Below are positions 43,172 to 52,711 of a stretch of 64,000 nt of DNA, piece after piece. A program made the position numbers and the translations under genes. Position 1 is the stretch's first letter. Each line of letters opens with the position of its first letter. The stretch spans positions 62,001 through 126,000 of the forward strand of contig JAGYKW010000003.1 in NCBI GenBank assembly GCA_018401275.1, given 5' to 3'. The notes beneath the pieces are model-generated. The model was not told where the DNA came from. It made no database searches and saw only the letters and a program-made list of their open reading frames with translations. Origin of the DNA: Nitriliruptoraceae bacterium (lineage in GTDB: Bacteria; Actinomycetota; Nitriliruptoria; Nitriliruptorales; Nitriliruptoraceae).

Positions 43172-44122
43172 TCAGCCGAACCGCCCGGAGACGTAGGCCT
43201 CGGTGCGCGGGTCGCTCGCGTTCGTGAAGATCCGGTCGGTCCGGTCCATCTCGACCAGCTCACCCGTGCGCTGCCCCGACTCGTCGTCGATGTCCACGGT
43301 CAGGAACGCCGTGTAGTCGGAGACGCGTGCGGCCTGCTGCATGTTGTGGGTCACGATGACGATGGAGTACTCGTCCTTGAGCTCGCGCATCAGGTCCTCG
43401 ATGCGCAGTGTCGCGATGGGGTCGAGCGCCGAGCACGGCTCGTCCATGAGCAGCACGTCCGGCTTCGTCGCGATCGCTCGCGCGATGCACAGGCGCTGCT
43501 GCTGACCGCCTGACATCCCGAGCGCCGACTGGTCGAGGCGGTCCTTCACCTCGTCCCACAGGGCGGCGCGGGTCAACGACTCCTCGACGACGTCGTCGAG
43601 GTCGGACTTCTTCCACTTCAGGACGCGAGGCCCGTAGGCGACGTTGTCGTAGATCGACTTCGGGAACGGGTTGGGCTTCTGGAAGACCATCCCGATCTTG
43701 CGTCGCACGATCACCGGCGAGACGCCTTCGCCGTAGACGTCCTCGCCGTGGTAGCGCAGGCCACCCTCGACGCGCGCGGACGCGATGAGGTCGTTCATGC
43801 GGTTGAAGCTGCGCAGCAGCGTCGTCTTCCCGCAGCCCGAGGGACCGATGAACGCCGTGATCTCCTTGGCGTGGATCTGCATCGAGACGTCGCGCACGGC
43901 CTGGAAGTCGCCGTAGAAGACGCTCAACCGGTCGGCCTCGAACACCACCTCAGCGCGGGCCCGTTCCTCGTCGTCCGCCCGTGCGCCGCCCAGGGCGGTC
44001 GACAGGTCGAAGCCCGTCGACGCGGTCTCCGAGGAGCCGCTCCCGCCCGGCATGGACGAACCCACCGTCGGTGCCGCGGCGGCATCGGGGAGGGCGTGCT
44101 CAGGGGTCGGGTCTGCATTCAT
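43172..44122 (-). CDS. pstB: Phosphate ABC transporter ATP-binding protein PstB
   Basis: A 316-residue ATPase, longer than the usual 250-280 because of a Gly/Ser/Pro-rich N-terminal extension of about 55 residues. Walker [10 protein letters not shown], signature [10 protein letters not shown], Walker B VLLMDEP and the switch His of THNMQQA are intact, as is the PstB-typical SFNRMNDL. The start ATG 44122 has GGAGG 7 nt upstream. A GTG at 44176 overlaps the pstA stop and would add 18 residues; less likely. Confidence 0.95.
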
Positions 44123-44172
44123 CGCGGTACCTCCGTGGGGCGTCGTGCGCTGCGTCGCGGGCTGAGAGGGGG

Positions 44173-45087
44173 TCACTGGAGCGGACGTTCGTAGCGGTTG
44201 CGGAGCCAGATGGCGAACGAGTTCATGAACAGCACCAGCACGAGCATGACGAGCACGCCGGCGAAGGCCAGGAGACGGAACGATGCCTGCGGGCGGGTCG
44301 CGTACTGGTAGATCATCACGGGGAGCACGGAGTACCCGTCCGACCAGAAGCGCGGGTTGAACGTCACGAACGTGACCGCCCCGACGAGCAGGAGCGGAGC
44401 CGCCTCACCGAAGGCGCGCGCGACCGAGAGGATCGCGCCGGTGAGCACTCCCGGAGCGGCGTAGGGGACGACCTGCGTCCACACCGCCTTCCATGGCGTC
44501 GCACCGAGGGCCAGCGCCCCCTCCTTGAGGGAGCGCGGGACGCCGCGGATCGCTTCCCGGGACGAGACGATGATCGTGGGGAGCACGAGCAGCGCGAGGG
44601 TCAAGGAGCCCGCGGCCGCGACGAACCCGATACCGACGGGACCACGGACGATGAACGCGAGACCGAGGATCCCGAACACGATGGCCGGTACGCCGGCCAG
44701 GTTCTGGATGTTGAGATCGACGAGCCGCGCGAACCGGCTCGTGCGATCCGAGAACTCCTCGAGGTAGAGCGCCGTGCCCAGCCCGATCGGGATGATGAGG
44801 ACGATGACCCCGGCGATCACGTACAGCGACCCGAAGATGGCCGTACGGAAGCCCGCCGTCTCGATGCGAGCGGTCGACGGGGCGTTGGTGAACAGCCCCC
44901 AGTCGAGGCGCGGGAGACCGGCGGAGACCGCCCAGATCAGGATCGCGGCGAGGCCACCGAGCGCGACGAAGATGCCGAGGCCGAGCACCGCGGAGAAGGC
45001 GATGCTGAACGCACGCTCACCGGCCGGTGGCGCGCCCCGGATCGAGTCCCGCTGCGGGAGGCTCGCGGTGGAAGAGGTGATGGACAT
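44173..45087 (-). CDS. pstA: Phosphate ABC transporter permease PstA
   Basis: A 304-residue inner-membrane permease with six helices and the EAA-type loop that docks PstB ([22 protein letters not shown]). It forms the phosphate channel with PstC. The ATG directly abuts the pstC stop (TAG then ATG), giving tight co-translation. Normal length. Confidence 0.95.
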
Positions 45088-46062
45088 CTACTCGTAGACC
45101 TCCCGGAAGCGACGGACGAAGCGGATCGCGAACAGGTTCAGCGACAGCGTGACGAGGAACAGCAACGACCCGACCGCGAAGACCGTGTCGTAGATGAGCG
45201 TCCCCTGCGCGATGTCCCCGGTCGCCTTGCCCGCGATGAAGGCGGTCATGGTCTGCACGCCGGCGAAGAGGTTGAACGACAGGTTCGGGTTCCCGGCTCC
45301 GGCAGCGAGCAGCACGATCATGGTCTCCCCCACGGCCCGTGATGCGGCCAGGACGATACCCGCGACGATGCCGGAGATGGCCGCGGGGACGACGACCCGG
45401 ATGGCCACGCGCGCCTTGGAATCACCAAGGGCGTAGGCCGCCTCGCGCAGCGACTGAGGGACCTGGCGCATCGCGTCATCGGACACGGAGGCCATGAGCG
45501 GGACGGTGATGAGCCCGACCGCCATGCCACCGATGAGGATGGCGAAGGGTCCGGTCCAGGGGAGGTTCGGGAACGCCTCCTGAGCGGTGGGACGGAGGAA
45601 CCAGAAGGCGAACAGGCCGACGGCGACGGTCGGCACGCCTTCGAGGACCTCGAGCGCCGGCTTGATGATCCTGCGCACCCGTGCCGGTGCGTACTCCGAC
45701 AGGTAGATGGCCGAGAGGAGACCGACGGGCACGCTCACGAGCAGCGCGAGGACGACGACGATGCTCGAGCCGACGACGATCGGCAGGACGCCGAAGGACG
45801 GGTTCGCGAAGTCGGGTGCCCAGAACGTTCCGGTGGCGAACTCGAGGAAGCTGACCCCGTGGACGGTCTGGACCTCGCGGAAGAAGGAGATCGCGGCCGG
45901 GAAGAGGGAGGCGACGATCCCGGCGGTGGTGAGGATCGCGATGGTCGCGCTGCCGCGCAGGAACTGCAGGATGGCCCATTCACCGGGCCGACGGGTGGGG
46001 TCCTGCAGGCCCCGGTGCGATGCACCGGGGCCTGCAGGCCGTGCTGATGTCGAGGTCGTCAC
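45088..46062 (-). CDS. pstC: Phosphate ABC transporter permease PstC
   Basis: A 324-residue permease with six helices; the cytoplasmic coupling loop is SLREAAYALGDSKARVAIRVVV. GTG 46062 is 4 nt past the pstS stop (46067-46069). No later in-frame start precedes the first helix, so the coding region must include the 37-nt palindrome described separately. The first 30 residues are Arg/Gly/Pro-rich and not conserved. Confidence 0.94.
   Translation of the reverse strand: MTTSTSARPAGPGASHRGLQDPTRRPGEWAILQFLRGSATIAILTTAGIVASLFPAAISFFREVQTVHGVSFLEFATGTFWAPDFANPSFGVLPIVVGSSIVVVLALLVSVPVGLLSAIYLSEYAPARVRRIIKPALEVLEGVPTVAVGLFAFWFLRPTAQEAFPNLPWTGPFAILIGGMAVGLITVPLMASVSDDAMRQVPQSLREAAYALGDSKARVAIRVVVPAAISGIVAGIVLAASRAVGETMIVLLAAGAGNPNLSFNLFAGVQTMTAFIAGKATGDIAQGTLIYDTVFAVGSLLFLVTLSLNLFAIRFVRRFREVYE
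46002..46038 (-). promoter_or_regulatory. 37-nt perfect palindromic hairpin at the start of pstC
   Basis: Arms 46002-46018 and 46022-46038 are exact 17-base complements with a GAT loop. It lies 29 nt after the pstS stop and inside codons 9-21 of pstC. No T-run follows. The position between the binding protein and permease fits a structure that protects or truncates the pstS message, so more PstS than PstC is made. Confidence 0.7.
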
Positions 46063-46066
46063 CGGG

Positions 46067-47071
46067 TCAGTTGCCGGTAAGTGCGCGGACCTTCGCGCGC
46101 TGGACCTCGATCTGCTCCGGGGTCATCGGGACGAAGTCCGCGAGGCCGGCGATCTCGATGGCGTTGTCGAGCACGAACTCGGCGAACGCGACCGTCTCCG
46201 GCTTGGCGAGCGCGACGTCACTGAAGTACGTGAACAGTCCACGACCGAGCGGCGTGTAGGTCAGCCCGAGCACGTTCTCCGGGGTCGGCTCGATGCAGCC
46301 GTTCCCGTCGTCGATTGCGATGCCCTTCACCTGGTCCTTGGTCTCCTGGTAGTAGGAGAAGGGGATGAAGCCCATGCCGCCCGGCGTGCCGGCGACGCCG
46401 ACGACCGCTGCAGTGTCGTCCTCACCGATGTCGGTGTAGGTCGTGTTGATGCGGCCGGACTCGCCGTTGATCTCATCGGTGAAGAAGTCGAACGTGCCGG
46501 AGTCGGTCCCCGGGCCGTAGAGCGTGACCGGCGTCGAGGCGAAGGCAGCCGGGAGGTCGAGGCCGTCGACGTCACCCCACGTGGTGACCGTCGAGCCCTC
46601 GTCCCAGATCTGGCTGACCTGGTCGACCGTGAGGCACTGGATCGGGTTGTCGTTGTTGATGACGACCGAGAGGGCGTCGTTCGCGACCTGGATGAAGTCG
46701 TAGGCGATGTTATTCGCCTTGCACTTCTCTTCCTCGGACTCCTTGATCTGACGCGACGCGTTCGAGCCGTCGGTCTCACCGGCACAGAACTTGTCGAATC
46801 CACCACCGGTGCCGGAGATGGCGACGGTGACGCGGACGCCGGAGTTCTCGTCCATGAAGAGCTCGGCGGCGACCTCCTGGAACGGACCGACGGTGCTGGA
46901 GCCGTCGAGGTTGACCGAGCCCGAGAGCGCGGCGGGAGCAGCAGGAGCAGCGGGGGCGGAGGTGGAGGGCGCGGAAGGCGCCGGCGCTGCCGGCTCCTCT
47001 TCGGACCCACACGCCGCGAGGACGAGGGCGGTGGCTGCCAGGACGGCAGCGGTTCGGGTGAGGCTTCGCAT
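46067..47071 (-). CDS. pstS: Phosphate-binding lipoprotein PstS
   Basis: A 334-residue periplasmic-type binding protein held at the membrane by a lipid (lipobox LAAC), then a Pro/Ala/Ser linker of about 30 residues, then the SBP fold. Phosphate-contacting motifs include LDGSSTVGPF, AISGTGGGFDKFCAGE and GTDSGTFDFFTDE. ATG 47071 is 11 nt after GGAG; frames upstream (to 47248) lack similarity. First gene of pstS-C-A-B, with PHO-box repeats about 100 bp upstream. Confidence 0.95.
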   Translation of the reverse strand: MRSLTRTAAVLAATALVLAACGSEEEPAAPAPSAPSTSAPAAPAAPAALSGSVNLDGSSTVGPFQEVAAELFMDENSGVRVTVAISGTGGGFDKFCAGETDGSNASRQIKESEEEKCKANNIAYDFIQVANDALSVVINNDNPIQCLTVDQVSQIWDEGSTVTTWGDVDGLDLPAAFASTPVTLYGPGTDSGTFDFFTDEINGESGRINTTYTDIGEDDTAAVVGVAGTPGGMGFIPFSYYQETKDQVKGIAIDDGNGCIEPTPENVLGLTYTPLGRGLFTYFSDVALAKPETVAFAEFVLDNAIEIAGLADFVPMTPEQIEVQRAKVRALTGN

Positions 47072-47164
47072 GGTGATGGCGACTCCGTGTCGTATGGGTT
47101 TGGGATGCCGGCCTTCCAGCCGGTCCGTGCGACGGCGGTGGGATCTCCCACACCGACGACCGGG

Positions 47165-47219
47165 ACCGTAGGCAGCGCAGGTGAAGCGCCGACCCGACGA
47201 AGGCGAACGGAAGGTGAAC
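47165..47219 (-). promoter_or_regulatory. PHO box and promoter of pstSCAB
   Basis: On the minus strand 11-bp units starting GTTCACCTTCC (47209-47219) and GTTCGCCTTCG (47198-47208), a poor third unit (47187-47197), then CTTCACCTGCG (47176-47186), 5 nt and a -10 TACGGT (47165-47170). This matches the 11-nt GTTCACC repeat bound by actinobacterial PhoP/RegX3. The leader to pstS is about 90 nt with no other recognisable element. Confidence 0.65.
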
Positions 47220-47257
47220 GGCGACCGAACCTTCGGGGCGAGCGTCATGCGGGCTCG

Positions 47258-48727
47258 TCAGCGCGCAGGGAGGTCCGTCTGGTGAGGGGTCCCGGCGTCA
47301 CCGGCAGCGCTGTCGACCATCAACCGCACGACCGGACCGTGCGCGAACAGGTCGCGCGGCACCCCGTGCACGCCCACCGCGGCCCACGCAGCCGCCGGCA
47401 CCCCGAGATCGGCGAGATGCAGGTCACCGAGGAACGCCTGGGCGCCCGGCGCCACACAGGCCTGCGTCGGCAGACCGAGCGCGACCGTGACGTCCGCGGT
47501 CACGCACGGGCCTCGGATGCCCTCGTCCGGACCCATGCCGCTCGGGACGTCCACGGCGAGGACGGGGACGTCGTGGCGTCGCAGCCAGCGCGCGATCGTG
47601 GCGGGACGTCCCTGCAGCGGCGGACGAGCACCCACGCCCAGGACCGCATCGATGACCAGAGCGCCGGGTGTCGTGGCGTCGTCGAGCGGATGGCGCTCGA
47701 GCACCGTCACCTCGACGCCGATGCCGCGCAGGAGATGGGTCTGGGCGGGCAGCCGGGGTGGTCCCACCGTGAGGACGCTGACGTCGTGTCCTGCGGCGGC
47801 GAGCAGGCGGGCCGCGACGAGCCCGACCGTCCCGTTGGAGGAGGGTCCGGCGAGGACCGTGATCGGGCCGTCGACGGTCGCGGCGCTCGCGAGCATCACC
47901 TGCGCGGCCGACGCCACCGCACGCCCGGCCTGCTCAGCGCGCTGCGACGGTCCGAGCCCGTGCGCGTCCAGCCACGCCCGGACCGCACGGACCTGGGTGA
48001 CACGCACGTGCGGGACCGCGTCCTGCGCGATCTCCGGGAACGTGGCGCCGAGCCGGGCCCTCCGGGGCAGCCTGGGGGTCAGCGTCCACGGTTCCTCCGC
48101 GCGACCAGGACCGAGATCGTCCGGCGTCACTCCCCCGTTCCATCCCGGCAGCGCCGCATCGAGCAGCATGCGGACCACGAGCGCGGTCGCTCCCCACAGG
48201 AGGTCGTCATCGAGCTGCCACGCCCACGTGGACCCCTCGCGCGGACCGTGCGGCGTGTGCCGCCACCGGCGCTCCTCGGTGAGCGTGTCGAGCCCGACGT
48301 GCAGGACCTGTGCGACCTCGCGTGGCTCGACCACGAGCGGATGCGGGGCGTGCCAGCGGGCGACGACCGGGACGACCCAGAACCGCGACGGGGGGATGTA
48401 GAAGGTCGGACCGTGACCCAGCACGCTGACGCTGCCCGGATCGAGCCCGATCTCCTCCGTGGCCTCGCGCAGTGCCGCCTCCGTCGCCGTCTCCCCCGGC
48501 TCGACGCGACCACCGGCGAAGGACAGCTGCCCGGGGTGCGAGCGCAGGTCGGGACGCCGCCGCGTCAGGACCAGCCGCAACGCCGCCTGCGCGTCCTGAC
48601 CCTCCTCGAGCAGGACGAGCACGGCACCGATGCGTGCCCCGGGCGGAGGCGTCCGCGCGTCCTCGGGGACCGTCGCGAGCGCCGCATCGAGACGGGTCCA
48701 GATGTCGTCCGCATGCGAGGCGCTCAT
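47258..48727 (-). CDS. Nudix hydrolase (CoA pyrophosphatase type) fused to a YjeF_N/NAD(P)HX-epimerase-like domain
   Basis: A 489-residue fusion. The first half is Nudix: LRSHPGQLSFAGGR and the Nudix box at residues 73-95 (G-x5-E-x7-RE-x2-EE-x-GL), the signature of NudL-type CoA/acyl-CoA pyrophosphatases. The second half (about 250-450) aligns with YjeF_N epimerases: VIDAVLGVGARPPLQG, AVDVPSGMGPDEG and the ending GDLHLADLGVP. But the GNNGGDG loop is SSNGTVG (residues 297-302) and the later Lys region is LPTQAC, so epimerase activity is doubtful. ATG 48727 overlaps the ppx stop (ATGA); it ends the operon from the S1 gene. Confidence 0.85.
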   Translation of the reverse strand: MSASHADDIWTRLDAALATVPEDARTPPPGARIGAVLVLLEEGQDAQAALRLVLTRRRPDLRSHPGQLSFAGGRVEPGETATEAALREATEEIGLDPGSVSVLGHGPTFYIPPSRFWVVPVVARWHAPHPLVVEPREVAQVLHVGLDTLTEERRWRHTPHGPREGSTWAWQLDDDLLWGATALVVRMLLDAALPGWNGGVTPDDLGPGRAEEPWTLTPRLPRRARLGATFPEIAQDAVPHVRVTQVRAVRAWLDAHGLGPSQRAEQAGRAVASAAQVMLASAATVDGPITVLAGPSSNGTVGLVAARLLAAAGHDVSVLTVGPPRLPAQTHLLRGIGVEVTVLERHPLDDATTPGALVIDAVLGVGARPPLQGRPATIARWLRRHDVPVLAVDVPSGMGPDEGIRGPCVTADVTVALGLPTQACVAPGAQAFLGDLHLADLGVPAAAWAAVGVHGVPRDLFAHGPVVRLMVDSAAGDAGTPHQTDLPAR

Positions 48728-49665
48728 GCGAGCAGCCGTGCCGCGAGCGCATCGAGCGAGTCGGCCTCGCTGACGACGAGCTCGGGTCGTCCGAGCAGCC
48801 GTAGCGCGCGCGACAGCACGATCGCACCGCCGTGCAGGACCTCGGCGCGTCCGGGCTGAACAGGTCCGAGGGCCGCGCGCTGCGCGACGCTCATGCCGGC
48901 GAGTCGCGCGGTGATCGCATCGAGCGCGCCGGCGTCGACGCTCGTGCCGTGGATGCGCGACTCCTCGTAGTCATCGAGCCCGAGGTGCAGCGCCGCGAGC
49001 GTCGTGGCGGTCCCGGCGACGGCGACGACGGTGCGCACGTCCGCGACGCTCAGGCCGTGCGGGGCGAGGCCGTCCGCGAGCACCGCGATACCCGCGGTGA
49101 GCACCGCGTCCGCGGTGCGCGTCGCCGCGACGAGCTCGGCCGGATCGGCCGGATCGTGGTGGAGGTCGCGCTCGGTGAGGCGCACGCAGCCGAGCTGGGT
49201 GGACACGCTCGCGAGCACCTCGCCGCCGCGTCCGACCACCAGCTCGGTCGAACCACCACCGACGTCGATGACCAGGCACGGGTCCCGTGTGGGGACCGCG
49301 CCGGTCGCACCGGCGAAGCCGAGCGCAGCCTCCTCGATGCCGCTGATCACGTCGACGCGCAGACCGACACGGTCGGCGACGGCGTCGAGGAAGCGGTCGC
49401 GGTCGCTCGCGTCACGCACGGCGGACGTCGCCGCGATGCGGACGTGCTGCGTATCCGTCGCGACGTCGTGCTGCTCCCACACGGCACGAAAGGCGGCGAT
49501 GGCGTCGACGGTGCGCACGATCGCCTCGTCGGCGAGCCGTCCGGTCCGGTCCACGCCCTGCGCGAGCCTGGTGGTGGTGATGCGCCGCAGCACGCGGGTG
49601 CCGTCGTCGGCGAGCACGAGGAGTCGCACCGAGTTCGACCCGACGTCGACGGCGGCGACGCTCAC
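48724..49665 (-). CDS. ppx: Exopolyphosphatase/guanosine pentaphosphatase family protein
   Basis: A 313-residue member of the actin-like Ppx/GppA family. Phosphate loops are VAAVDVGSNSVRLLV and VIDVGGGSTELVVG; the length (no C-terminal HD domain) is that of the short actinobacterial Ppx (Rv1026/Rv0496 type), which hydrolyse polyphosphate and influence (p)ppGpp. GTG 49665 overlaps the DUF501 stop (GTGA); the frame extends 5' but without a site. The order S1-DUF501-ppx downstream of ftsB and eno parallels Rv1023-Rv1026. Confidence 0.92.
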   Translation of the reverse strand: MSVAAVDVGSNSVRLLVLADDGTRVLRRITTTRLAQGVDRTGRLADEAIVRTVDAIAAFRAVWEQHDVATDTQHVRIAATSAVRDASDRDRFLDAVADRVGLRVDVISGIEEAALGFAGATGAVPTRDPCLVIDVGGGSTELVVGRGGEVLASVSTQLGCVRLTERDLHHDPADPAELVAATRTADAVLTAGIAVLADGLAPHGLSVADVRTVVAVAGTATTLAALHLGLDDYEESRIHGTSVDAGALDAITARLAGMSVAQRAALGPVQPGRAEVLHGGAIVLSRALRLLGRPELVVSEADSLDALAARLLA

Positions 49666-50228
49666 GGCCGATCGCCATCGGACGCGACGTCGACGCACGG
49701 TGCTGGACAGGCCATCGGGAGCAGCGTGTCCGCGACGTACGCGCCGACCGGGTTGTCGCCCGTCGCCAGATGATGCGCGAGGTGCACATGGAGGCACTTG
49801 ACGCGCCGTGGCATCCCGCCGGCGGTCGGGCCGCCCTCGAGCGGCTCGTCCGGTCCGCCCAGCCGGTCGCGGAACGCGACGTACTGCTCGGCGGTCAGGG
49901 TGTAGTCGGCCTGGAACGACGCGTCCTCCGCGAGGCGCTCGTTCAGCCGCACCATCTCGTGGTCGGCCTCCATGCGCCCGACGGCGGAGCGCAGCAGCGG
50001 ACAGGCCAGCCAGAAGGTCGTCGGGAACGGCGTGCCGTCCTCGAGGCGTGGATCGACGCGCACGACCGTCGGCAGCCCGTGCCCGCAGCGGTGCATGACC
50101 GCAGGACGGCCGCGTGCGGGCCGGCCGAGCTGCTCGGTGATGACCGCGATGGTCGCGTCGTCCGCCGGAGGGGCGTCGAACGCTGGGCCGTAGCCCGCGG
50201 ACGGGTCACGCTGGACGGCGTCGATCAC
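49662..50228 (-). CDS. DUF501 protein
   Basis: A 188-residue protein of the actinobacterial DUF501 family (Rv1025 type). Conserved features visible: MHRCGHGLPTVV, PFPTTFWLACPLL and the C-terminal CLHVHLAHHLATGDNPVG, with Cys and His residues that could hold a metal. Function is unknown; gene-order conservation with ftsB, eno and ppx suggests a link to division or to phosphate/polyphosphate metabolism. GTG 50228 overlaps the S1 gene stop by 4 bp. Confidence 0.88.
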   Translation of the reverse strand: MIDAVQRDPSAGYGPAFDAPPADDATIAVITEQLGRPARGRPAVMHRCGHGLPTVVRVDPRLEDGTPFPTTFWLACPLLRSAVGRMEADHEMVRLNERLAEDASFQADYTLTAEQYVAFRDRLGGPDEPLEGGPTAGGMPRRVKCLHVHLAHHLATGDNPVGAYVADTLLPMACPAPCVDVASDGDRP

Positions 50229-50608
50229 GTGCCGACACGACCGCGCTTCTGGCGACGGGCCTCGCCCTGGATCATCTGCGACTTGTGCATGAAGCGGCGC
50301 AGACGCTTGTTGAAGTCCTTGTCCAGCTTCGAGCGGAGGTTCGGAGCCTCCTCATCGACCCACTCGGGGTCGGCGCGCTTGATGGACAGGTCCACCTTGC
50401 CGTCGTCCTTGATGTCGAGGACCCGGACGTCGACCTCGTCGCCCTCGGCGAGGTACGCGTAGATGTTCTCGACGTAGTCGACGGCGACCTCGGAGACGTG
50501 CACGAGGCCCGTCGCGAGGACGCCCTCGATGTCGACCTCGACGAACGCGCCGTACTCCTCAAGACGGACGACCTTGCCCTTCACGATCTCTCCCAGCAGT
50601 TCGACCAA
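50225..50608 (-). CDS. S1 RNA-binding domain protein
   Basis: A 127-residue protein: one S1 OB-fold (residues 5-75: GKVVRLEEYGAFVEV, GLVHVSEVA, VDVRVLDIKDDGKVDLSIK) and a basic C-terminal tail (from about 88). Such proteins bind RNA or ribosomes. The start is uncertain: TTG 50608 overlaps its own GAGGAG, while GTG 50584 (residue 9) has GGGAGAG 3 nt upstream and would clip the first strand. It is the first gene of the chain S1-DUF501-ppx-Nudix. Confidence 0.82.
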   Translation of the reverse strand: MVELLGEIVKGKVVRLEEYGAFVEVDIEGVLATGLVHVSEVAVDYVENIYAYLAEGDEVDVRVLDIKDDGKVDLSIKRADPEWVDEEAPNLRSKLDKDFNKRLRRFMHKSQMIQGEARRQKRGRVGT

Positions 50609-50740
50609 CTCCTCTCGGGTCCTTGCCGACCTCGTCGGCGTGCCTCCCTGACCGGCGCTTCAGCGCGGCGGCCCCTCGTCCTCGCTGCGGCCGCAGGACG
50701 GCCTGAACGGGTGGACGGGGTCGGAACTTCCGTGGGAGTC

Positions 50741-50759
50741 GCGTCGGACACGCCGACGC
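50741..50759 (-). terminator. Stem-loop after ftsB
   Basis: GCGTCGG and CCGACGC enclose ACACG about 33 nt past the ftsB stop. The rest of the 183-bp gap to the S1 gene (50609-50791) shows no clear promoter hexamers. Confidence 0.4.
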
Positions 50760-50791
50760 AGCGGCAACGGTAGCCGGAGCAGGGCAGGGCG

Positions 50792-51217
50792 TCAGCCGAC
50801 GCGGGCCCGCAACCAGGCCAGCAGCCGGTCGAGCAGGTCGTCCTCGGACGTCGCCTGCTGCGGTGCATCGCGGATCCGAGGGACGTCGACCTCCGGTGCG
50901 ATGAGCACGTAGGGGACCTCCCCGGGTCGCACCAGCCCCTGCTGGGAGCGCGCGAGCAGCTCGATGGTGACGTCATCGTCGAGGTCCACGACGCGCCGTT
51001 CGAGCCGCTGGTTCTCGGTGTCGAGCGCGAGGGCCTGCTGCTCGAGCAGCGCGACACGCTGCCGGGCCACGACGTACTGCTCGAACGGCGGGGCGAGCAG
51101 CACGGCACCCAGTCCGAGCGCACCGAGCAGCAGCACACCGAGCAGGAGGTCGACGGCCGAGCCGCGACGCCGTGTCCGTGCCCGTTGCCGTGCCCGTTGC
51201 CGTGTCGATGCCCTCAT
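50792..51217 (-). CDS. ftsB: FtsB/DivIC-type septum formation initiator
   Basis: A 141-residue single-pass protein: very basic N-terminus (RQRARQRART, coded by a 12-bp repeat), transmembrane helix (about 24-44), coiled coil (VARQRVALLEQQALALDTEN) and a short DivIC-type C-terminal segment (RSQQGLVRPGE). FtsB-FtsL-FtsQ recruit septal peptidoglycan synthases. Start ATG 51217 follows GGAGGAGG by 8 nt; GTG 51226 would touch that site. The position downstream of eno is the same as Rv1024. Confidence 0.9.
   Translation of the reverse strand: MRASTRQRARQRARTRRRGSAVDLLLGVLLLGALGLGAVLLAPPFEQYVVARQRVALLEQQALALDTENQRLERRVVDLDDDVTIELLARSQQGLVRPGEVPYVLIAPEVDVPRIRDAPQQATSEDDLLDRLLAWLRARVG
51176..51204 (-). 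repeat. 12-bp tandem repeat in the ftsB N-terminus
   Basis: Two copies of CCGTGCCCGTTG (plus-strand reading) and a 5-bp partial third, in frame, coding Arg-Gln-Arg-Ala repeats just before the membrane helix. Confidence 0.75.
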
Positions 51218-51280
51218 GCTCGCCACCTCCTCCCTGTGTCTCGTCCCGAGCGCGCTTCTGTCGTGCTGGTCCGGCCCGTC

Positions 51281-52711
<1,431 letters not shown>

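Follow-up and report, generated by a model that had tools for sequence, protein, structure and literature searches.

The window, a stretch of 64,000 nucleotides from a Nitriliruptoraceae bacterium, contains on its reverse strand a gene that joins a Nudix domain through a linker to a YjeF_N domain (Table 1). The preliminary description of this DNA, made from the sequence alone, had proposed a fusion of a CoA-type Nudix hydrolase with a worn YjeF/NnrE-like domain, and the presence of both domains is confirmed by Pfam and by fold comparison. NUDIX and YjeF_N are the sole families above cut-off in the Pfam scan of the fusion protein, which shows neither an LSm nor an FDF part. The two strongest curated NCBIfam models are TIGR00197 (NAD(P)H-hydrate epimerase), a narrow miss at 84.2 bits against a cut-off of 88.6, and PRK10707 (CoA pyrophosphatase equivalog), with 68.2 bits against a cut-off of 134. 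Since both scores lie below the curated cut-offs, the two halves are to be seen as relatives of these families. Sequence matches in the PDB are led by the CoA pyrophosphatase 1nqy from D. radiodurans for the first half (E 1.3e-16) and by TM0922 for the second half (E 1.2e-11), followed there by AI-BP and yeast YNL200c.

Table 1. Features of the fusion gene and of the genes upstream of it, in window positions
Feature	Position	Strand	Remarks
Whole fusion gene	47258..48727	(-)	489 aa, ATG start; Nudix + linker + YjeF_N
NUDIX domain, residues 35-148	48284..48625	(-)	PF00293, E 5e-16, 59.4 bits vs cut-off 21.1
CoA-type upstream signature, residues 54-73 (LTRRRPDLRSHPGQLSFAGG)	48509..48568	(-)	R58 at [SA] position, FAGG for FPGG
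Nudix box, residues 73-95	48443..48511	(-)	Intact: G73...E79...REATEEIGL 87-95
Linker, residues 196-225	48053..48142	(-)	Conserved W196, G199, P213, W214
YjeF_N domain, residues 263-422	47462..47941	(-)	PF03853, E 3.3e-30, 105.7 bits vs cut-off 24.9
Altered NNGGDG loop, residues 294-302 (GPSSNGTVG)	47822..47848	(-)	Asp replaced by V301, N298 kept
D360	47648..47650	(-)	Kept in 50/50 fusion rows
D393-V-P-S-G397, with the invariant pocket Asp of the fold	47537..47551	(-)	Retained; D in 39/50, E in 11/50 fusions
T421, at the catalytic Lys position (E. coli YjeF K192)	47465..47467	(-)	Alignment column
ppx/gppA, upstream neighbor	48724..49797	(-)	Stop overlaps fusion start by 4 bases
Remaining upstream row: eno, divIC-like, S1-domain protein, DUF501	49662..52627	(-)	Pfam; eno read from sequence

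An AlphaFold2 model of the fusion protein (mean pLDDT 74.7) is very good in the Nudix half and falls below a pLDDT of 50 at residues 219 to 241, 365 to 370, 396 to 439, and 458 to 489. The second domain is weak because 3 of the 40 rows of the input alignment covered it, and with a pTM of 0.54 the interdomain geometry of the model is not interpretable. The second half of the model matches mouse AI-BP with a Z score of 16.1 (rmsd 5.3 over 174), TM0922 with 13.4 (rmsd 3.0 over 139), yeast YNL200c with 13.3 (rmsd 5.7 over 185), and human Edc3 with 12.6 (rmsd 5.5 over 196). An unrelated Rossmann domain in the C-terminal half, which the preliminary description had regarded as a challenge to its own reading, is ruled out by these structural matches together with the Pfam result and the PDB sequence match to TM0922; the fold found is that of YjeF_N.

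The fusion gene closes a row of genes in the order eno, divIC-like, S1-domain, DUF501, ppx, and fusion. Among 43 related loci, some of them short or at contig ends and 6 of them Nudix-only, truncated, or cut, an ORF of the ppx cluster occurs in 33, and the clusters assigned by resemblance to eno, DUF501-like, and DivIC-like genes occur in 20, 20, and 19, respectively. In 23 of the 30 loci measured, a same-strand ppx ORF is found upstream, at a rough distance of -4 to about 4300 bases. The Nudix-only loci L092, L094, and L095 show ppx upstream on the same strand, as in the fusions, and L093 contains an unplaced ppx in the locus. A pstS-pstC-pstA-pstB-like row is found directly downstream of the fusion on the same strand (window positions 43172 to 47248), its first gene being assigned to the PBP type by Pfam and the rest read from sequence; this row is not among the gene clusters common to the related loci within about 5 kb. 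The neighborhood is a housekeeping one and gives no indication of the substrate.

The Nudix half and its likely substrate

The window protein contains the pattern of the Nudix superfamily, GX5EX7REUXEEXGU, together with the match to PF00293. The box residues R87, E88, E91, and E92 are invariant in 30 aligned fusions; the final glycine of the box varies in part of the class, and the strict pattern is found in 18 of the 30 rows. The strict upstream motif of CoA-cleaving Nudix enzymes is TxR[SA]x3Rx3Gx3FPGG. The window protein departs from it at R58 and at FAGG. The [SA] position is occupied by arginine in 27 and by glutamine in 3 of the 30 fusions, compared to alanine or serine in 29 of 37 rows from outside the class, and arginine or glutamine is found there in most Nudix-only members of the class as well. 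This exchange indicates that the substrate preference may differ from that of the classic CoA pyrophosphatases. Nothing on the CoA motif was found in PMC5389931 or PMC2707057.

The nearest solved relatives of the Nudix half are CoA diphosphatases. In the structural comparison NUDT11 ranks first (Z 22.6), followed by NUDT7 (Z 21.5) and the CoA pyrophosphatase 1nqy/1nqz (Z 18.5 for 1nqz). With the CoA pyrophosphatases, among them 1nqz from D. radiodurans, NUDT7, and E. coli NudL/PRK10707, the Nudix half shares the Nudix box, an upstream signature of the HPGQxxFPGG type, and the structure (Z 18.5 to 22.6, NUDT11 included). In contrast to these enzymes, the fusion clade shows arginine or glutamine for serine or alanine in the CoA signature, a conserved W/PW tail, and the fused YjeF_N domain. 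Much of the linker (residues 196 to 225) is also present in Nudix-only relatives of the class: the W..G...P..L tail after the Nudix domain (window residues 196 to 214) is largely common to the Nudix-only members L092 to L095, the final PW less so. Most of this tail is therefore part of the Nudix half and not of the fusion. Judged by its nearest relatives in structure and sequence, the Nudix half is most likely a CoA-type pyrophosphohydrolase, for which CoA or a related dinucleotide containing ADP would be the substrate.

Distribution of the fusion within the class

The class sample comprises the genome of the window and its 60 nearest relatives, 61 genomes of the Nitriliruptoria in total. A single match spanning both domains is found in 48 of these 61 genomes, the window's own included, and in five families. 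An assembly or frame artefact is ruled out by this recurrence. The fusion locus is cut by a contig end in six class genomes (G003, G021, G023, G044, G049, and G056), and in G046 the fusion (L090) is cut short inside the second domain. A Nudix gene lacking the second domain occurs in four genomes (G039, G041, G054, and G060), with no match to the second domain in the flanks of these genes; G036 and G057 show no match to the fusion protein in the search of the 61 genomes. The fusion gene L079 of G042 contains an in-frame stop, which, like the shortened copy in G046, may reflect either a genuine loss or an error in the sequence.

An even draw of the phylum, comprising 149 genomes, includes 13 of the window's class, of which 10 contain the full fusion, 1 a contig-cut copy, 1 the Nudix part alone, and 1 no match. 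The other 136 Actinomycetota genomes (101 with listed matches, 21 with weaker matches alone, and 14 with none) show no match spanning both domains among the matches listed, and the same holds for the matches listed for 61 Chloroflexota genomes. Six single genomes from further records contain no spanning match. A contig scan with two Nudix peptide patterns returned at least 80 loci, at least 2 of them full-length fusions, which says little about the spread.

A quick tree of the Nudix domain was built from 30 fused rows, 5 rows taken as Nudix-only, 1 truncated row, and 26 rows from outside the class; one of the five, L096, is contig-cut and does not count among the losses. In this tree the class rows lie together on one side of a branch with a support of 94. 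The Nudix-only rows nest among the fused rows in two places with supports of 88 to 90, although a single change is all that the starred branches by themselves require. The simplest history suggested by this tree is a single fusion event, after which the second domain was lost at least once.

To our knowledge, the partners of YjeF_N domains comprise NnrD, the PPOX of plants, and the LSm/FDF parts of Edc3, with a Nudix domain in cis not among them. Searches of mostly open literature gave no account of such a fusion: in the parts retrieved, YjeF with Nudix led to eukaryotic decapping or to gene lists, and NADHX with Nudix to a review on NAD, and the combinations of YjeF_N, Nudix, and fusion and of Nitriliruptor and Nudix likewise gave none. 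The absence of a Nudix and YjeF_N fusion from the literature searched, with subscription journals barely covered, is weak negative evidence. A comparable case is the plant NnrE-PPOX fusion (At5g49970), in which YjeF_N is likewise joined to a partner other than NnrD (PMC5938422). There, in contrast to the fusion described here, YjeF_N is a validated epimerase and its partner an oxidase of vitamin B6 salvage.

Residues, pocket, and origin of the YjeF_N domain

The second domain was compared in an alignment of 50 fused domains, 35 bifunctional Nnr proteins, and 23 further rows that lack a dehydratase part (referred to here as stand-alone). In the iterated profile search, bifunctional proteins showed additional weak matches toward their C-terminal end, and for each ORF the best match alone entered the comparison. 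The aspartate of the GGDG motif is present in all 34 bifunctional rows with a letter at this position, in 2 of the 23 stand-alone rows, and in none of the 50 fused rows; the two stand-alone rows that keep it, L124 and L129, both group with bifunctional proteins in the quick tree. The catalytic lysine is found in 33 of 35 bifunctional, 22 of 23 stand-alone, and 5 of 50 fused rows, and across the fusions its column is filled by T, L, K, S, A, W, V, R, or Q. In the window protein the NNGGDG columns read S297, N298, G299, T300, and V301, in a loop with the sequence SSNGTVG. The loss of the GGDG and Lys motifs noted in the preliminary description is borne out by these replacements, the aspartate by V301 and the lysine by T421. 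With respect to NnrE, the fold and the PF03853 match are present, whereas the score lies under the TIGR00197 cut-off and the catalytic lysine and the NNGGDG aspartate are absent. NnrE and NnrE-NnrD proteins such as YjeF and TM0922 share with the fused domain the YjeF_N fold, the pocket aspartate, and the DxPSG and DAxxG loops; in contrast to them, the fused domain lacks the GGDG aspartate, the catalytic lysine, and the dehydratase (Carb_kinase) partner and has a Nudix partner instead.

With both the lysine and the GGDG aspartate gone, NAD(P)HX epimerization by the window protein is unlikely. The same two losses weigh against the view that the second domain has remained catalytic through other residues, be it as an epimerase or with another NAD-modifying activity: at least 95% of the epimerase activity of E. 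coli YjeF is lost with the exchange K192A (PMC5938422), and a column with nine residue types is loose for a catalytic site. This view, which we regard as unlikely, draws on the retention of D393 and D360, on the lysine kept in 22 of the 23 stand-alone rows and in the five fusions, and on the modification of NAD by Edc3 in vitro reported in PMC4059234. Since five fusions keep the lysine, some members of the class may have an enzyme function that is residual or altered.

The pocket of the fold is retained in the fused domain. D393 corresponds by alignment to D147 of TM0922 and to D188 of AI-BP, with an inferred chain offset of 12 residues, a position described in PMC4059234 as the "invariant aspartate." Position 396 is S or T in all 50 fused rows. 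Among the rows from the order of the window, 33 of 34 keep N298, compared to 3 of 15 in the rest of the class, where the ligand may therefore differ or be absent. Of 29 strongly conserved positions, 12 fall within the 21 pocket-loop positions of the 184 in the domain (3.3 expected, p 3e-6), the three loops having been set from canonical motifs after the list of conserved positions was known; without glycine the figure is 6 of 19 (p 0.003), so that the glycines account for part of the enrichment.

The second domain is under purifying selection. Its dN/dS lies between 0.08 and 0.41 in all 18 chosen pairs, with values for the Nudix half between 0.045 and 0.395, and the second domain is at or above the Nudix half in each of the 18 pairs. 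Values this far below 1 show that "worn," as the domain had been called, is not correct if it is taken to mean decay, and a change of role seems to have taken place. A decaying leftover without a role, which the higher dN/dS relative to the Nudix half and the absence of the domain in some relatives might suggest, is largely refuted by the selection result, and the retention of both domains in the 48 genomes from five families adds to this, making it a very improbable explanation. A retained pocket under selection suggests binding, which supports the earlier interpretation in part.

The origin of the domain was addressed in a careful tree of 67 rows, chosen as 18 of the 50 fused rows, 11 of the 35 bifunctional ones, and 19 of the 23 stand-alone ones, to which 19 new rows from further genomes were added; other phyla are represented in it. 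The excluded stand-alone rows are L061 (partial), L124 and L129 (bifunctional pieces), and L229 (very long branch, no lysine). The fused rows form one group (100/100) within an Asp-less clade that includes stand-alone proteins (98/98), with a bootstrap that had not settled (0.982), and the Asp-keeping rows lie on the side opposite to this clade; in the first quick tree the fused group had a support of 74. An eroded copy of a bifunctional Nnr is ruled out by the grouping of the fused domain with Asp-less stand-alone proteins. The missing aspartate is thus no mark of wear in the fused domain, since the stand-alone YjeF_N clade in which this domain falls lacks the aspartate already.

The stand-alone Asp-less proteins form a YjeF_N family found in Actinomycetota and Chloroflexota, in which the aspartate is replaced (mostly as GGGG) and the lysine mostly kept. 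Examples with the lysine are L222, L223, L224, L225, L227, and L230 and the Chloroflexota members L250, L251, and L252, among others. They share with the fused domain the clade and the loss of the GGDG aspartate and differ from it in being unfused and mostly Lys keeping. The simplest history indicated by these sequences is that the aspartate was lost first in a stand-alone ancestor and the lysine later within the fused line. In several genomes (e.g., G013, G042, G043, and G055), a stand-alone Asp-less protein occurs beside an ordinary bifunctional Nnr. Across 18 loci of stand-alone proteins, no neighbor is common to four or more, apart from an ABC-type ATPase cluster in six.

Possible roles of the fused YjeF_N domain

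The genome of the window (G000; 96% complete, 1.73 Mb) shows no other YjeF_N, no canonical NnrE, and no NnrD-type Carb_kinase match, so that no partner is known in it with which an epimerase could work. Each of three congeners has a Carb_kinase match, and the finding in G000 reflects either an assembly gap or a loss of NAD(P)HX repair. Carb_kinase, the dehydratase family, lies above cut-off in 41 of the 61 class genomes, which means that most relatives have the ordinary repair partner. These observations bear on the earlier proposal of a hand-over, in which the second domain captures the damaged cofactor NADHX and passes it to the Nudix part for hydrolysis, a disposal instead of a repair. The retained pocket aspartate and loops, the lack of a repair-pathway dehydratase match in G000, and the binding of ADP-ribose-type ligands by YjeF_N domains described in PMC4059234 would agree with such a route; the frequency of Carb_kinase in the class speaks against it, and as an obligatory step it is countered by the Nudix-only genes of four class genomes. 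The literature searched for NADHX and Nudix together gave, in the parts retrieved, a review on NAD alone. The proposal is conceivable, found no support here, and appears quite improbable.

Dcp2 is a Nudix decapping enzyme that is served by Edc3, and we know of no epimerase role for the YjeF_N domain of Edc3. The pairing of Edc3 (LSm-FDF-YjeF_N) with Dcp2 resembles the fusion in placing a non-epimerase YjeF_N alongside a Nudix hydrolase, and the fold match to Edc3 was given above. Edc3, however, is a eukaryotic protein of its own that contains LSm and FDF parts and acts on mRNA, whereas here the YjeF_N domain stands in cis to a Nudix domain that is of the CoA type and not of the Dcp2 type. The fusion may work like Edc3 but is not a member of its family, since it has neither an LSm nor an FDF part and its Nudix domain is of another type. 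The likeness is a functional one, and common descent of the pairing is not claimed.

The Edc3 YjeF_N domain facilitates homodimerization (PMC8984151). This precedent, the disappearance of the epimerase residues, and the absence of the domain in some relatives are consistent with a purely structural role, in which YjeF_N dimerizes or stabilizes the Nudix enzyme with no ligand involved. The pocket loops and both pocket aspartates, however, are among the most conserved positions, more so than a scaffold seems to need, and we consider a purely structural role somewhat unlikely.

We favor, at about even chances, a reading in which YjeF_N is an accessory non-epimerase module of a CoA-type Nudix enzyme, binding a nucleotide-type ligand and/or dimerizing the protein. 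The Nudix half would cleave CoA or a related ADP-containing dinucleotide, the YjeF_N pocket would hold a nucleotide-type ligand and/or the domain would dimerize the protein, and the module would thereby tune the Nudix part in its stability or activity. The substrate, the ligand, the dimerization, and any coupling between the domains are inferred.

A more specific version, drawn by analogy and held with rather low confidence, takes the fusion as an in cis counterpart of Edc3-Dcp2, in which YjeF_N would sense a metabolite of the NAD(H)/ADP-ribose type and control the CoA-type Nudix domain, having arisen independently from the uncharacterized Asp-less YjeF_N family. For Edc3, PMC4059234 reports binding of NADH by the human protein with a Kd of about 163 uM, no detected binding of CoA, and an altered function of hEdc3 upon mutation of the pocket. 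The same source describes no effect of NAD on dimerization or RNA binding, and its authors doubt pure allostery; together with the modification of NAD mentioned above, these results mean that the Edc3 precedent does not establish a sensing role.

If the control of the Nudix domain by an NAD-type metabolite holds true, the fusion would couple the turnover of CoA to the NAD state in much of the class. The stand-alone Asp-less, Lys-keeping YjeF_N proteins of at least two phyla do not warrant an annotation as NnrE without a test. If the YjeF_N module of the fusion binds a regulatory ligand, the protein would provide a simple one-chain system for the role of a non-epimerase YjeF_N.
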